Of a stretch of 32,980 nt of DNA, positions 25,695-32,003 are shown in pieces. The DNA lies in NCBI GenBank assembly GCA_027451885.1, contig DAIDHX010000299.1, positions 1 through 32,980 on the forward strand, written 5' to 3'. Every line of letters begins with the position of its first letter. The stretch's first letter is position 1. A program made the translations under genes and the position numbers. This DNA is from Planctomycetales bacterium. Lineage in GTDB: Bacteria > Planctomycetota > Planctomycetia > Isosphaerales > Isosphaeraceae. The notes beneath the pieces are model-generated. The model was given only the letters and a program-made list of their open reading frames with translations, was not told where the DNA came from and did no database searches.

Positions 25695-26774
25695 TCACAC
25701 CTCCCGGGGCAGGCCGCCGGCGACCCCGCGTGCGACTCCACGCGCGAGCGCGGGCCCCACGATCATGACGAGCACAGCGCGCACGGTCTGCTGGCCCATC
25801 ACGAATGAGAGATCGGCATTGGTGGCGGCGGCGATGACGGCGGCGGCGTCGACACCGCCTGGGCTCGTGGCCAGATACGCGGTGAGCAGGTCGGTGCCGG
25901 CCGCGCTGTGCAGAATCCACGCCACTGCGCCGCAGAAGGCCATGAGCAGGAGGATCGAGCCCAGCACCCAGGGAATCGACCGTGCGGCATGCGCCAGCCC
26001 AGCGCGTGTGAACTGGAGCCCAACGCCCCAGCCCAGCACCACGAACGTCCCCAGCAGCAGCCAGCGTGGCAGGTCGATCCGCACCAATCCGGCTGCCTGC
26101 AGCCCCGCGCCCAGGAACAACGGAACCATGAGCGGCCCCGACCGCAGCCGCGCCAGGCGTGAGATCGCAAGGCCGGCCCCCGCGATGAGGAGCGCAGTGA
26201 TCACGGCCGAAACCCCAGGCCCAGAATCGCGCAGCGCCCCCGCCACGAGGCCCCCCGATCCCGCCGCGCCCCGGCCGACCAGCGACGCCAGCACCGCCAC
26301 GCACAGCACCCGCAAATACTGCATGAACGCCACCAGCCGGTGATCGCCGCCGTGCGCCTCGGCCAGCAGCATCATCGTGCTCGCCCCGCCCGGCGATAAT
26401 CCCCAGATCGCCGTCGTGCCCGGCAACAGCCCCCGCCTCGCAAGCACAAAACCCAGCACACTGCTCGCCAGCAGCGTCGAGACCGTCACGCCCAGGTAGA
26501 CCGGCCACTGCCGCGCAAAGCGCTCCAGAAACTCCGGCGTCACCCGCGCGGCGATCATGCAGCCGATCACCGCCTGCGCGGCCACGCGGCTCGAGCGCGG
26601 CAGCCGGATCCGCCCACCCCCAACCCCCACCACCACTCCCGCCAGCAACGAACCCAGCAACCACGCCGCCGGCAGCCTCACCAGAAGCAGGACCGGCACC
26701 AGCACCCCCGTGCCCGCCGCCAGCAACGCCCACTCCCAGAACACGGAACCCTCACGCCCCCGTTCTTCTCGCAT
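25695..26774 (-). CDS. AbrB-family (PF05145) integral membrane protein
   Basis: This is a 359-residue polytopic membrane protein of the AbrB/ammonia-monooxygenase-like family (unrelated to the AbrB DNA-binding regulator of Bacillus). It has about ten hydrophobic segments arranged as two homologous halves. Each half carries the family motif around SPGG: WGLSPGGASTMM near residue 128 and ATSPGGVDAAAVIA near residue 307. Its transport role is inferred from the fold only; no substrate is known. Its ATG (26774) begins directly after the TAA of the upstream hydrolase gene, so the two are cotranslated. Regulation by the divergent TetR protein is suggested by operator-like sites. Confidence 0.87.
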   Translation of the reverse strand: MREERGREGSVFWEWALLAAGTGVLVPVLLLVRLPAAWLLGSLLAGVVVGVGGGRIRLPRSSRVAAQAVIGCMIAARVTPEFLERFARQWPVYLGVTVSTLLASSVLGFVLARRGLLPGTTAIWGLSPGGASTMMLLAEAHGGDHRLVAFMQYLRVLCVAVLASLVGRGAAGSGGLVAGALRDSGPGVSAVITALLIAGAGLAISRLARLRSGPLMVPLFLGAGLQAAGLVRIDLPRWLLLGTFVVLGWGVGLQFTRAGLAHAARSIPWVLGSILLLMAFCGAVAWILHSAAGTDLLTAYLATSPGGVDAAAVIAAATNADLSFVMGQQTVRAVLVMIVGPALARGVARGVAGGLPREV

Positions 26775-27344
26775 TTATTCATCCTTGAATGAAATGGCGT
26801 CCGAGCGCGTAACCCGCGCGATCCTCGGCAAGATGTGCGATACCGCGAACTGGTGCGCCTCGGCCGAAAGGCTCGCCGCCGCGTCCTCGGCGATCACCAC
26901 CGCGATCCCCCGCTCCCAGGCCTCACGCGCTGTCGACTCCACGCCGAAGTTGGTCGCGATCCCCCCCAGCACGATCGTTTGCACCCCCCTGCGCCTGAGC
27001 TGGAGCTCAAGATCGGTGCCGTAAAACGCACCCCATTGCCGCTTCGTGACCACCAGATCGGTCTCGGCCACAAGCCCCGGCGGAAAGTCGATAAACCCCG
27101 GCGGAAATCCCCCCGCGGGCGCGGCAAACGGCTCATCCACCGGCAGCTTGAGCGCATCGCCGAAATCCGCCGACCACGCCACCCGCACCCAGATCACAAG
27201 GGCACCCGCCTCCCGGAACCGCGCGGCAAGCCGCGCCGCCGCCGCCAGCACCTCCGCCCCCGGCCGCGGATACGTCGCCCGCCCCAGCACGCCATTCTGC
27301 AGGTCGATCATCACAAGCGCAGTCGAACGCGCATCCAGGTTCAT
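26775..27344 (-). CDS. Isochorismatase-fold cysteine hydrolase lacking the catalytic cysteine
   Basis: This is a 189-residue member of the isochorismatase-like superfamily. D14 (MIDLQNG) and K101 (VVTKRQWGAF) of the Asp-Lys-Cys triad are present. At the position of the nucleophilic cysteine the protein has G134, in GGIATNFGVESTAREA. From memory, E. coli YecD has a similar glycine (TNIGVESTARNAWE), so this looks like the YecD branch rather than decay. The chemistry is therefore unclear; hydrolysis by the standard thiol mechanism is not expected. The GTTGAGC leader with GAGG supports the start at 27344. It is the first gene of an operon with the AbrB-family membrane protein (zero gap). Confidence 0.88.
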   Translation of the reverse strand: MNLDARSTALVMIDLQNGVLGRATYPRPGAEVLAAAARLAARFREAGALVIWVRVAWSADFGDALKLPVDEPFAAPAGGFPPGFIDFPPGLVAETDLVVTKRQWGAFYGTDLELQLRRRGVQTIVLGGIATNFGVESTAREAWERGIAVVIAEDAAASLSAEAHQFAVSHILPRIARVTRSDAISFKDE

Positions 27345-27382: not shown

Positions 27383-27411
27383 GTGACGCCCGGCGGCCGG
27401 GGTGGTAATAT
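27383..27411 (+). promoter_or_regulatory. Candidate promoter of the tetR-like gene
   Basis: GTGACG (27383-27388) and TAATAT (27406-27411) are separated by 17 bp, each matching 4 of 6 consensus bases. The last base of the -10 box is the first base of the proximal operator copy, so repressor binding would block this promoter too. Confidence 0.35.
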
Positions 27412-27424
27412 GAGGCTTGCCTCA
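27411..27424. promoter_or_regulatory. TetR operator candidate, copy 1
   Basis: TGAGGCTTGCCTCA is a perfect palindrome: six paired bases on each side of TT. It fits the pattern TGAGG-N4-CCTCR shared with copy 2, 27 bp away centre to centre. It covers the predicted start site of the divergent isochorismatase operon (near 27425) and abuts the -10 box of the tetR promoter. Confidence 0.6.
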
Positions 27425-27431
27425 CAAATCG

Positions 27432-27461
27432 ATTTTATGAGGGAGTCCTCGCAAATGTCAA
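27432..27461 (-). promoter_or_regulatory. Near-consensus sigma70 promoter of the isochorismatase operon
   Basis: On the minus strand a perfect TTGACA (27461-27456) is followed after 18 bp by TAAAAT (27437-27432). Transcription would start near 27425 and give a leader of about 80 nt. The -35 box overlaps the first codons of the tetR-like gene, and operator copy 2 lies entirely within the spacer. Confidence 0.6.
27438..27451. promoter_or_regulatory. TetR operator candidate, copy 2
   Basis: TGAGGGAGTCCTCG is the second, slightly imperfect copy of TGAGG-N4-CCTCR. It sits between the -35 and -10 boxes of the minus-strand promoter, the classic position for steric repression, and in the leader of the tetR-like gene just before its start codon. 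Confidence 0.55.
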
Positions 27462-28081
27462 CCCCGAACGACAGGCACGCCCCGCGCGCGCCCAAGCGCG
27501 CGCGCGGGCGGAAGCGGGTCTCCGAGCTCGTCGAGGCGGGCGTTGCGCTCTTCGCGGAAAAGGGATATGACGCCGCGACCATGACCGAGGTCGCCGCCCG
27601 CGCAGCCGCGCCCATCGGCTCGCTCTATCAGTTCTTTCCCAGCAAGGAAGCCCTCGCCGACGCCGTGCTCGAACGTTGCGACGCCCAGCTCGACGCGGCC
27701 CTGGCCGCCATTGAGAACATCGCCGCCGCCGCCGCGATCCCCCCCCTCGTCGACGCATTTCTCAACCTGCTCCTGGGCTTCGAGCGCGAACGCGCGGCCA
27801 TGGCCACCCTCATCGAGTCCCGCGCGGAAGCCTCCACGCGCGCGGCCGAGCTCAAGCGCAGCAGACGCGCCCGGGTCGCCCAGATCCTCGCCAGACGCTT
27901 CCCCGGCCTGCCGCCCGAGCGCACCCGGAACATCGCCCACCTGCTCATCCAGCTCATCAAGATCGCCGCCAACGTCGCCGCCGAACCCGATCCCGAAACC
28001 CGCGCGGGTGTCAGAAACGAGCTCCGCACACTGGGCATCCTCTACCTGCAAGACGCCGAACGCGCCAGCGAACTGGGCTGA
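27455..28081 (+). CDS. TetR/AcrR-family transcriptional regulator
   Basis: This is a 208-residue dimeric ligand-responsive repressor. The N-terminal helix-turn-helix (about residues 18-65) reads ELVEAGVALFAEKGYDAAT followed by the recognition region IGSLYQFFPSKEALADAV, the standard TetR_N pattern. The C-terminal helical domain (about 75-200) would bind the inducer and dimerise. GGGAG at 27441-27445 lies 9 bases before the ATG at 27455; an ATG at 27437 is an alternative. It is divergent from the isochorismatase/membrane-protein operon, and the shared palindromes indicate it represses that operon and itself. The inducer is unknown. Confidence 0.9.
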   Translation: MSTPNDRHAPRAPKRARGRKRVSELVEAGVALFAEKGYDAATMTEVAARAAAPIGSLYQFFPSKEALADAVLERCDAQLDAALAAIENIAAAAAIPPLVDAFLNLLLGFERERAAMATLIESRAEASTRAAELKRSRRARVAQILARRFPGLPPERTRNIAHLLIQLIKIAANVAAEPDPETRAGVRNELRTLGILYLQDAERASELG

Positions 28082-28204: not shown

Positions 28205-28765
28205 ATGCCGCACGAGAACAACAGCCTCCTCCGCCCGCTCGAAGCCTACGCGGATTACCTCCGCCTGCCGGCGCGGCTGGCGCTCGACGTCCGCCTGCAA
28301 AGCCTGCTCGATCCCTCCGACATCGTTCAGCAAACCCTGCTCGTCGCCCACGAAAAGCAGGACCAGTTCCGCGGCCGGTCCGACGCCGAACGCTTCGCCT
28401 GGCTGCACACCATCCTCGCCCGCATCGTCGCCCAGCATCTTCGCCGGCACGACCGGTTCGGCCCGGAACACGCCCGCTCGCTCCAGACGATCCTCGACCG
28501 CTCGTCCGCCCGGCTCGACGCCTGGCTCACGCACGAAGAATCCACCCCCGGCCAGAAAGCCGCCCGCGCTGAGCTCCTGCTCCTGCTCGCCCACGGCATC
28601 GAGAATCTGCCGCGCGACCAGCGCACCGCGATTGAACTTCATCACTTGCGCGGTCTTTCCGTCGCGGAAGTCGCAAAATCGATGGAGAAATCGGTGGAAT
28701 CGATCGCGGGTCTGCTGTACCGTGGAGGGAAGGTTTTAAGAGCCTCGTTGCGTGATCCTGAGTGA
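28205..28765 (+). CDS. ECF-subfamily RNA polymerase sigma factor
   Basis: This is a 186-residue planctomycete-type ECF sigma factor. Region 2 includes LLDPSDIVQQTLLVAHEKQDQFRG and continues into FAWLHTILARIVAQHLRRHDRF, the -10 recognising helices. Region 4 is near the C-terminus: NLPRDQRTAIELHHLRGLSVAEVAKSM (in two overlapping helices) and VESIAGLLYRGGKVLR, the -35 recognising helix-turn-helix. No anti-sigma gene is adjacent; a WD40 Ser/Thr kinase follows with an overlapping or nearly overlapping start. In planctomycetes, ECF/kinase gene pairs are common and the kinase is thought to control the sigma factor; here that is inference from position. Confidence 0.92.
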   Translation: MPHENNSLLRPLEAYADYLRLPARLALDVRLQSLLDPSDIVQQTLLVAHEKQDQFRGRSDAERFAWLHTILARIVAQHLRRHDRFGPEHARSLQTILDRSSARLDAWLTHEESTPGQKAARAELLLLLAHGIENLPRDQRTAIELHHLRGLSVAEVAKSMEKSVESIAGLLYRGGKVLRASLRDPE

Positions 28766-28775
28766 CGCATCGGCC

Positions 28776-31700
28776 ATGGCGGCGGATCCGGACCGGAACC
28801 CTCTCAACGAAACACAGGTCGCGCGGGTGCTGGCGGCGTATTACCAGGCCGCGGAGCAATCCCGCGCGCCCGACCGCCAGGCATTGCTCGCGCAGCATCC
28901 CGACCTGGCGGACGAGCTCACCCGCCATTTCGCGTTTCAGGATCGCTTGAGCGTGCTGGCCGAGCCGCTCCGCGTGCTGGGGTCCTTGCTCGCCGACGAG
29001 GCGCTCGCCCCTCCCGCCGACGTCGGCCGCACCATCGGCGATTACAAGCTCCTGGGCGAGCTCGCGCGCGGCGGCATGGGCATCGTCTACCGCGCCCGGC
29101 AGCTCAAGCTCGACCGCCTGGTCGCTCTCAAGGTCTGCCGCGACGGCGTGCTGGCCGGCAAGGACGATCTCACGCGCTTCCGCAACGAGGCCCAGGCCGT
29201 CGCCAATCTCGACCATCCCAACATCGTCCCCATCCACGAGGTCGGCGAGCATGAAGGCGCGTGCTACTACAGCATGAAGCTGGTCGAGGGGGGGAGCCTG
29301 GCCGCTCGGCTGCCCGAATACACGCGCGACCCCGCCCGCGCGGCCCGGCTGCTCGCCACAGTCGCCCGCGCTGTGCACCACGCCCACGAAAAAGGGATCC
29401 TCCACCGCGACCTCAAACCCTCCAACATCCTGATCGACAGCCGCGGCGAACCCCTGGTCGCCGACTTCGGCCTGGCATGCCGACTCGATGGACCGAGCGA
29501 CCTCACCCGCACCGGCGACATGCTGGGCACTCCCAGCTTCATGTCGCCCGAACAGGCCTCCGGCAAGCGCAACGCCGTCACCCCCCGCACCGACGTCCAC
29601 GGCCTGGGCGCAATCCTCTACGCCCTCCTTACCGGCCGGCCCCCGTTCCAGGGCGAAAACCAGCTCGAAACCCTCACGCTCGTGCGCGAACGGCCGCCCC
29701 AGCCCCCCCGGTTCTCGACCGCGGCCGTCGATCCCAACCTGGAAACCATCTGCCTGAAGTGCCTGGAAAAGGATCCGCGCGACCGCTATCCCTCCGCGCG
29801 CGCCGTCGCGGAGGAGCTCGAGGCCTGGCTGGCCGGCCGGCCGATCGAGGCTCGCCCCGTGACCCAGCTCGAGCGGCTCCTGCGCCACGGCCGCGGGCAC
29901 CCCAGGGCTGCGCTTCTGGGCGTGATCGCCGCCGGGCTCCTGGTCGCCGCGCTCGCCGCGCTCGAGATCACCCGCCGCGCCCTGAGCGCAGCCGCGCTCG
30001 AACGCCAGGCCGCGCGCAAGGCCGAAACCGAGCTCGAGCGCAGGCAGTACCTCCGCGGCCTGCGCCTGGCCGGCGAGCACATCCGCGACCACCGCCTCGC
30101 CGATGCGCACGCCCTGATCGACTCCCTCCCCACCCCGGCCGAGCCCGCCGACCTTGAGGGCTTTCCCCGGCTCTACCTCGAGCGGCTCCTCGCACTCCCC
30201 CCCGCGCCCCTCGCAGGCCACCAGGGAGACGTCTACTACGCCGCGTTCTCTCCCGACGGACGCACCCTCGCCACCGCCAGCCGAGACTTCACCACCCGGC
30301 TCTGGGACGTCCCCACCCGCCGTTGCCGCGCCATCCTCCAGGCGCATACCCACGAGGTCGGCTGGGCCGCCTTCTCACCCGACGGCAAAACCCTCGCCGT
30401 CGCCGGCCAGGACCGCGCCATCACGCTCTGGGACACACGCTCGGGTGCTCTTATGAGCACGCTTTTGGGCCATGCCGACGACGTCCTCGCCGCCGTCTTC
30501 CTCCATCACGCCCACCGCCTGGTCTCCTGCGCCCGCTCGGGCGAGATCATCCTCTGGGATCTCGGCACCCGCACGCCCGAGCGCCGGTTCCAGTTGAACA
30601 TCGGCGAGGTCCAGTCGCTCGACGTCTCGCCCGACGATCGGCTGCTTCTGCTCGCGGCGTCGACTCGCAGGGGCCCCGCTCCCAACCGCCCGACCATCGT
30701 CTGGGACCTGGCGGCGGGGCGGGAAGCCGCCCGCTTGCTCGATATTCAAGACTTCGACGAGTGCGCCGTCTTTTCGCACGACGGGCAGTGGGTTGCGACC
30801 GCGGGAAACGACGACCATGCGCGGCTCTGGCGCACGAGCGACTGGAGTCTCAAGGCCACCTTGCCCGGGAGCACCAGCCGCGTGCGCAGCGTGGCGTTTG
30901 CTCCCGACGATCGCGTGCTCGCCGCCTGCGACGAGCACGGCGGAATCCACCGCTGGGATCTTGCCACCGGCGAACGCGAGACCCTGAGCGCGGGGCCCGG
31001 CTGGAACTGGTGCGTGGCCTGGTCGCCCGATGCGCGAATCCTGGCCGTTGGCGCGCGGGACGGCTCGGTCCGGCTCTGGGACCAAACGCGCGACCGCAAT
31101 CGGATCGCGATCGAGGTCCGCGCGCGGACCTTGCCCAGCATGGGCCTCACGCGCGACGGGCTGCTGCGCATCGGCGACAACCGGGGTGCGTTCTCGGCGT
31201 ACGACGTGCCCAGCGGCCGCCTGGTCGCCGCCGGCAAGGCGCCCACCCAGCGCCCCGTGCTCGACGCCGTGATCTCCCAGAACGGCGAACGCATGCTCAC
31301 CCATGAATCCGACGGCGCCACCACGCTCTGGGAGCTCCCCACGCTCCGCAAGCTGGCCGCGTTCCAGACCCCGCCGCGATCCGACCAATCGTTCGTCCTC
31401 TCCCCCGCGGGCGCATGGCTCGAGCGCAACGGCGACTCCGCCGGGGGCGCGTTTCCCCGCGATTTCTGGGCGCTCGGGGACCAGGTCGAGCACGTCGAGC
31501 TCAGCATGTGGGGCGGGACGATTTCCGCCCTTGACGATCGCGGGCTCGTCAGCATCGACCACTGGGACCGCAACGACCCCACGGTCTATCGGCTCCCCTC
31601 GGGCGCGCGGATTCCGCCCAGCGGGCCCGGCCATTCCGTCACCGTCAACGCCGCCGCCTTCGCGCCCGACGGCCGCTGGCTCGCCTCCGGCGGCAGGGAT

Positions 31701-32003
31701 CGCAAGATCATCTTCTGGAACCTCGAAAACCTGCGCCCGACCCTGAGCACCGTGCGCGCCTCGTCACCGCCCCTCGCGCTGCAATTCTCACCCGACGGCC
31801 GCTGGCTCGCCTCCGGCCACGTCGACGGCCTCGTGCGCATCTGGGATGTCGCCTTCGGCCAGGAGGTTCTCACCCTCGACGGCCACGTCCGCCCGGTCGA
31901 GCGCATCCTCTTCAGCCCCGACGGCCGCACCCTGGCCACCTGCTCCATCGCCGTCAACGGATTCTACGAGGTCTTTCTCTGGCCAACCCGCTCGCCAGAT
32001 TAA
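28776..32003 (+). CDS. Membrane Ser/Thr protein kinase with WD40 propellers, paired with ECF sigma
   Basis: This is a 1075-residue Hanks-type kinase. The N-terminal about 85 residues form a helical planctomycete-type leader (LAAYYQAAEQSRAPDRQALL). The kinase domain (about 88-360) has the glycine loop ARGGMGIVYRA, lysine in VALKVC, HRDLKPSN, DFGLA and SPEQ, all intact. A membrane helix (about 378-398, LLGVIAAGLLVAALAAL) leads to WD40 repeats (about 470-1074) with blades ending TRLWDVPTR, ITLWDTRSG and VRIWDVAFG. The ATG at 28776 is 10 bp after the sigma stop; a GTG at 28752 would overlap it by 14 bp. It probably transduces an envelope signal to the sigma factor. Confidence 0.94.
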   Translation: MAADPDRNPLNETQVARVLAAYYQAAEQSRAPDRQALLAQHPDLADELTRHFAFQDRLSVLAEPLRVLGSLLADEALAPPADVGRTIGDYKLLGELARGGMGIVYRARQLKLDRLVALKVCRDGVLAGKDDLTRFRNEAQAVANLDHPNIVPIHEVGEHEGACYYSMKLVEGGSLAARLPEYTRDPARAARLLATVARAVHHAHEKGILHRDLKPSNILIDSRGEPLVADFGLACRLDGPSDLTRTGDMLGTPSFMSPEQASGKRNAVTPRTDVHGLGAILYALLTGRPPFQGENQLETLTLVRERPPQPPRFSTAAVDPNLETICLKCLEKDPRDRYPSARAVAEELEAWLAGRPIEARPVTQLERLLRHGRGHPRAALLGVIAAGLLVAALAALEITRRALSAAALERQAARKAETELERRQYLRGLRLAGEHIRDHRLADAHALIDSLPTPAEPADLEGFPRLYLERLLALPPAPLAGHQGDVYYAAFSPDGRTLATASRDFTTRLWDVPTRRCRAILQAHTHEVGWAAFSPDGKTLAVAGQDRAITLWDTRSGALMSTLLGHADDVLAAVFLHHAHRLVSCARSGEIILWDLGTRTPERRFQLNIGEVQSLDVSPDDRLLLLAASTRRGPAPNRPTIVWDLAAGREAARLLDIQDFDECAVFSHDGQWVATAGNDDHARLWRTSDWSLKATLPGSTSRVRSVAFAPDDRVLAACDEHGGIHRWDLATGERETLSAGPGWNWCVAWSPDARILAVGARDGSVRLWDQTRDRNRIAIEVRARTLPSMGLTRDGLLRIGDNRGAFSAYDVPSGRLVAAGKAPTQRPVLDAVISQNGERMLTHESDGATTLWELPTLRKLAAFQTPPRSDQSFVLSPAGAWLERNGDSAGGAFPRDFWALGDQVEHVELSMWGGTISALDDRGLVSIDHWDRNDPTVYRLPSGARIPPSGPGHSVTVNAAAFAPDGRWLASGGRDRKIIFWNLENLRPTLSTVRASSPPLALQFSPDGRWLASGHVDGLVRIWDVAFGQEVLTLDGHVRPVERILFSPDGRTLATCSIAVNGFYEVFLWPTRSPD

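Follow-up and report, generated by a model that had tools for sequence, protein, structure and literature searches.

Paired palindromes beside a divergent tetR gene: candidate operators conserved across several phyla

TetR(B) of Tn10 works through two palindromic operators, tetO1 and tetO2, that lie in one divergent intergenic region and serve autoregulation as well as the control of a gene for a membrane protein. The combination of a divergent tetR gene and palindromic operators is a classic one. For mycobacterial divergent TFTRs, the genomic context and palindromic intergenic motifs have been described, and QacR of Staphylococcus aureus binds as a tetramer to a single 28-bp palindrome (PMC4482099). 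Here, we analysed a tetR locus in a stretch of 32,980 nucleotides from a Planctomycetales genome, referred to as the window, whose two intergenic palindromes, O1 and O2, carry a DNA motif that is previously unreported in the literature we searched. That literature, outside of which most subscription journals fall, yielded no description of TGAGGN4CCTCA, of this TetR subfamily or of a TetR/isochorismatase operator.

Two palindromes between divergent promoters

The features of the locus are collected in Table 1. The earlier note had reported two copies of TGAGG-N4-CCTCR lying 27 bp apart, and both the coordinates and the start-to-start distance are exact. These are the sole two places in the whole window that match the motif, against 0.13 matches expected in dinucleotide-preserving shuffles, of which 0 of 100 reached the observed count. 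The likeness of O1 and O2 extends over 21 bp (TATGAGG-N4-CCTC[AG]CAAAT), and at up to two mismatches this extended word has no occurrence elsewhere in the window's 6.18-Mb genome; one site with three mismatches lies elsewhere, within an ORF. A wider regulon in this genome was considered and rejected. Perfect TGAGGN4CCTCA sites elsewhere fall inside long ORFs, and the spaced-pair pattern with one or two mismatches is loose (190 strand matches versus 89 for the reversed control) and is matched exactly by the tetR/hydrolase locus only, so we claim no second target.

Table 1. Features of the tetR locus, with positions in the window.
Feature	Positions	Strand	Sequence or elements	Remarks
tetR (TetR_N + TetR_C_15)	27437..28081	+		start ATG 27437 or 27455; start placed from orthologues
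Candidate operator O1	27411..27424		TGAGGCTTGCCTCA	perfect 5-bp arms; at predicted minus-promoter start; abuts tetR −10; kept position by position in 38 orthologous loci
Candidate operator O2	27438..27451		TGAGGGAGTCCTCG	fills minus-promoter spacer; overlaps/abuts tetR start; kept in 38 loci
Predicted divergent promoter	27432..27461	−	TTGACA (27461-27456) - 18 bp - TAAAAT (27437-27432)	for hydrolase/membrane-protein operon
Putative tetR promoter	27383..27411	+	GTGACG (27383-27388)-N17-TAATAT (27406-27411)	8/12 consensus
YecD-type isochorismatase-superfamily hydrolase	26775..27344	−		PF00857; NF008517/PRK11440
AbrB-duplication membrane protein	25695..26774	−		PF05145/TIGR03082; next gene of divergent operon

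The position of the palindromes relative to the two promoters also agrees with what the note had proposed. O2 lies wholly within the 18-bp spacer of the minus-strand promoter, O1 begins where the start of that promoter is expected (about 27425), and the last base of the tetR −10 hexamer is at the same time the first base of O1. The minus-strand promoter matches 11 of 12 consensus bases, with 0.1 such sites expected in shuffles. On the tetR side, the promoter is weak; it is kept among some members of the window's own family and shows little conservation beyond it. Similar TGACR-N17-TA hexamers occur in L148, L151, L153, L154 and L157. The pair may be placed to block both divergent promoters, of which the hydrolase-side one is strongly conserved and the tetR one only weakly so outside the family.

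The regulator matches PF00440 (E = 1.1e-14) and PF17918, both above their cut-offs, and has a TetR_N helix-turn-helix (HTH) followed by a helical C-terminal domain; its predicted fold is all-helical (pLDDT 86.7) and matches TetR structures over residues 20-213. The named TetR equivalogs (AcuR, KstR, BetI, RutR and others) all score far below their curated cut-offs (ScbR-type: 52.3 versus 150; AcuR: 38.5 versus 247), and its relatives by sequence in the PDB have E values no better than 6.7e-16 and align mostly over the HTH region. A ligand guess from the fold was abandoned: the neighbours comprise acyl-CoA, quorum-sensing and drug-binding TetRs with tied Z scores of about 14-16, which makes them uninformative on ligand class. 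The divergent hydrolase belongs to YecD/PRK11440, scoring 238.3 bits against NF008517 (cut-off 195). Elsewhere in the window, at 28205-32003, an ECF sigma factor gene and the Ser/Thr kinase-WD40 fusion gene that comes after it overlap by 14 bp.

Taken together with the conservation described below, these sequence data make it very probable that the adjacent TetR has its cognate operators in O1 and O2; it would repress both the divergent operon and tetR until released by a small molecule. The geometry predicts coordinated repression of both genes. By analogy with known TetR-family repressors, one TetR dimer would sit on each palindrome. The dimer on O2 would sit in the spacer of the divergent promoter and block RNA polymerase there, and the dimer on O1 would cover the start of the divergent promoter together with the −10 and start of the tetR promoter, such that both the hydrolase/membrane-protein operon and tetR itself (autoregulation) would be repressed. 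Binding of a small molecule to the C-terminal domain would then release the protein and lift both repressions.

Conservation of the pair and of the divergent promoter

Conservation of the palindromes in orthologous loci had been named beforehand as the deciding check, and the proposal withstood it. TetR relatives were gathered by protein similarity without consulting the motif, and their upstream DNA was then inspected. In the resulting tree, the clade with the operator pair comprises 42 rows on one side of a branch (SH-aLRT 94), drawn from Planctomycetota, Pseudomonadota and Eremiobacterota, with 46 rows on the other side. Two palindromes are present in 39 of the 42 clade TetRs: 38 carry the pair by the script's rule, and in the 39th, L110, the two sites are variants (CGAGGAATCCCTCG and AGAGGATGGCCTCG) spaced by 26 bp. 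The exceptions are L092, with O2 only, and L080 and L118, with neither site. No comparable pair was found in the 46 more distant rows, where L093 (Ktedonobacter) shows two looser sites of the form TGAGN6CTCA, spaced by 34 bp, and L128 a pair with three mismatches.

The nearest planctomycete orthologues, G002 (54% identity) and G032 (55%), carry both palindromes, likewise 27 bp apart, and more distant members of the window's family also have the pair at 25-29 bp. The same range holds in orthologues of 33-45% identity from Microvirga, Caulobacter, Methylocapsa, Rhizobium, Agrobacterium, Peteryoungia, Ferrovibrio, Terasakiispira, Dyella, Rhodanobacter, Trinickia and Paraburkholderia and from an Eremiobacterota MAG. 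Rhizobium tropici and Dyella japonica are two cultivable examples with this layout. Overall, spacing runs from 25 to 29 bp, most often 26 or 28 bp, with L082 at 37. Given this range, neither strict helical phasing of O1 and O2 nor cooperative contact between the dimers is supported. In a second planctomycete class (G159, L169), degenerate dyads lie 28 bp apart with a hydrolase-like gene divergent to them.

Conservation reaches beyond the palindromes to the promoter around them. Aligning the 38 loci ungapped on O2 yields the block TWTATGAGGATGNCCTCACAAAAGTCAAG, which reads on the minus strand as a −35 (TTGAYT) and an A/T-rich −10 with O2 filling the 18-bp spacer between them. Scored at this fixed position, the divergent promoter averages 7.9 of 12 in the 38 loci versus 2.3 at shifted control positions; 24 of the 38 score at least 8, and none of the shifted controls does. 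A palindrome overlapping the promoter to be regulated, as expected of a TetR-family operator, is thus found in the window, and its geometry is kept across the 38 loci.

Ownership of the motif and rival readings

The earlier note had described the palindromes as shared between tetR and a divergent hydrolase/transporter operon. The pair does go with TetR; the divergent partner, however, is not always a hydrolase. It is one in most loci, an AbrB-type membrane protein in L073, L074, L076, L081, L084 and the annotated Paraburkholderia record L177, and a small membrane protein in L150, L157, L054 and probably L151. From reading the sequences rather than from profile searches, it is an MFS-type transporter in L068 and SDR-like in L104 and L153. 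The operator pair stays constant while the divergent gene differs and, as judged from these comparisons, the motif is that of the regulator TetR, not of the divergent gene. Plasmid record L177 (1211-2320) calls the AbrB-type relative an 'AbrB family transcriptional regulator', a misleading name for a membrane protein. In L054 (1482-2036, G030), what appears to be a cassette copy in decay retains the operator pair intact, together with a truncated tetR relic and a divergent gene for a small membrane protein. L183 (G028:C1:3176126-3176398) is a second, broken hydrolase gene copy with in-frame stops near a tRNA-like sequence.

Palindromes can be bound by other regulators too, and O1 and O2 might be operators of one encoded elsewhere, with the adjacent TetR merely a target. 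We regard this as very unlikely. Whether a locus has the pair accords with its place in the TetR phylogeny (5 label changes versus 28.6 in shuffles), the pair persists across phyla with different divergent genes, and in the genomes searched the extended site occurs only beside tetR; for the extended half-site in proteobacteria, these were six genomes, of which five had matches. Moreover, the hydrolase-AbrB operon of G059 has neither an adjacent tetR nor the operator pair, even though its hydrolase, at 69% identity, resembles the window's more closely than do the hydrolases of the TetR-linked loci found. Upstream of the TetR-less operon in L180, the string TGAGGATGCCCT was inspected as an O2 remnant; it has the wrong orientation and is taken as chance.

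In the recognition helix of the TetRs, GSLY[Q/H/R]FF, the residue after Tyr is mostly Q, with H in one planctomycete clade and R in L068. Operator half-site positions 4 and 9 drift in the H clade, and C9 changes to G in both sites of L068. The events are few and the correspondence is suggestive of a possible specificity determinant for half-site positions 4 and 9.

A second alternative is that the repeats are not DNA operators, but RNA hairpins in the tetR leader that exert translational control. Each dyad could fold into a 5-bp stem closed by a 4-nt loop, and the tetR start codon, as placed from the orthologues, overlaps O2. The start in the window is ambiguous (ATG at 27410, 27437 or 27455), so that O2 may overlap coding sequence. 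In nearly all 38 loci, L101 excepted, an in-frame start codon (ATG; TTG or GTG in some) falls inside O2 or at its edge, either in TATGAGG or at the palindrome centre (TGAGGATGNCCTCA), and several orthologues have no start codon later than this one. By this comparison the window's tetR may start at 27437 (MRESSQMSTP...) rather than at the alternative 27455, for which a Shine-Dalgarno-like stretch, AGGGAG, lies inside O2.

Several observations speak against hairpins. Their stems would be short, and O1 is found at the likely tetR start or upstream of it. The O2 block is locked to the divergent −35 and −10 and is kept also outside the tetR start region. On Paraburkholderia plasmids, a variant-arm pair 25 bp apart and its trailing GTCAA are retained some 120 bp ahead of the tetR start, in a position where they code for no part of TetR. 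We consider the hairpin explanation even less probable than that of a regulator encoded elsewhere.

Because the −35 region elsewhere also encodes the TetR N-terminus, codon choice was analysed as well. Where a Ser codon overlaps the −35, it is TCA in 29 of 30 loci, compared with 6.5% of the other Ser codons in these genes (the loci average 63% GC), and loci with Ala or Thr at this residue use GCA or ACA. Retention of the rare TCA within the −35 demonstrates constraint on the DNA. Besides the usual pair, which is at the divergent promoter, the Paraburkholderia plasmids have a third palindrome with wider spacing, ATATGCGAGGA-N12-TCCTCGCATAT (L177/L178, about 2465-2500), which is located closer to the tetR start.

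Chance or duplicated sequence without function is the least credible explanation and can practically be set aside: a 10-specified-base palindrome does have 66 strand matches in the 6-Mb genome, some at the same place, but the pair is conserved across phyla at fixed promoter positions, and at 24-29 bp with at most one mismatch it occurs in 34 regions versus about 0.005 expected in dinucleotide shuffles of the 38 operator-bearing regions, which were chosen for having the pair (35 of all 90 regions examined satisfy the same rule).

A regulatory cassette compared with known systems

With O1 and O2 read as operators of the adjacent TetR, two aspects of the locus appear more unusual than its divergent layout: O2 has three roles, as operator, as spacer of the divergent promoter and as the region of the tetR start codon, and the operator stays constant while the target genes are exchanged. 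We consider the evidence evenly balanced on whether a compact cassette (tetR start codon, O2, divergent −35/−10 and O1, all inside about 60 bp) has travelled between phyla in one piece and been recruited to control unrelated divergent genes. In that case O2 would be under simultaneous constraint as operator, as spacer of a promoter and as codons for the N-terminus of the repressor. The analysis provides a candidate operator motif ready for experiment, TGAGGN4CCTCA twice at about 27 bp, for a TetR subfamily that is uncharacterised and occurs in several phyla, and points to a regulon of hydrolase and membrane protein. Exchange of the divergent gene beside an unchanged operator offers a usable case of regulatory cassette re-use, and the TetR/operator pair is a candidate part for orthogonal repressors.

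Among described systems, Tn10 TetR(B) shares with this locus the two palindromes in a divergent intergenic region and a membrane protein gene in the (here predicted) target operon; it differs in operator sequence and C-terminal domain and in that the first divergent gene here is a hydrolase, and the likeness in protein sequence and fold is at TetR-family level only. QacR is likewise a TetR-family repressor over a promoter, but it occupies one long site, whereas here two separate 14-bp dyads lie 27 bp apart, with spacing that varies among loci. Also similar in layout are the divergent TFTRs (PMC4482099), with regulator and target divergent, less than 200 bp between them, intergenic palindromes and functionally diverse divergent genes; in contrast to these, the clade described here spans several phyla and its O2 overlaps the start codon of the repressor.
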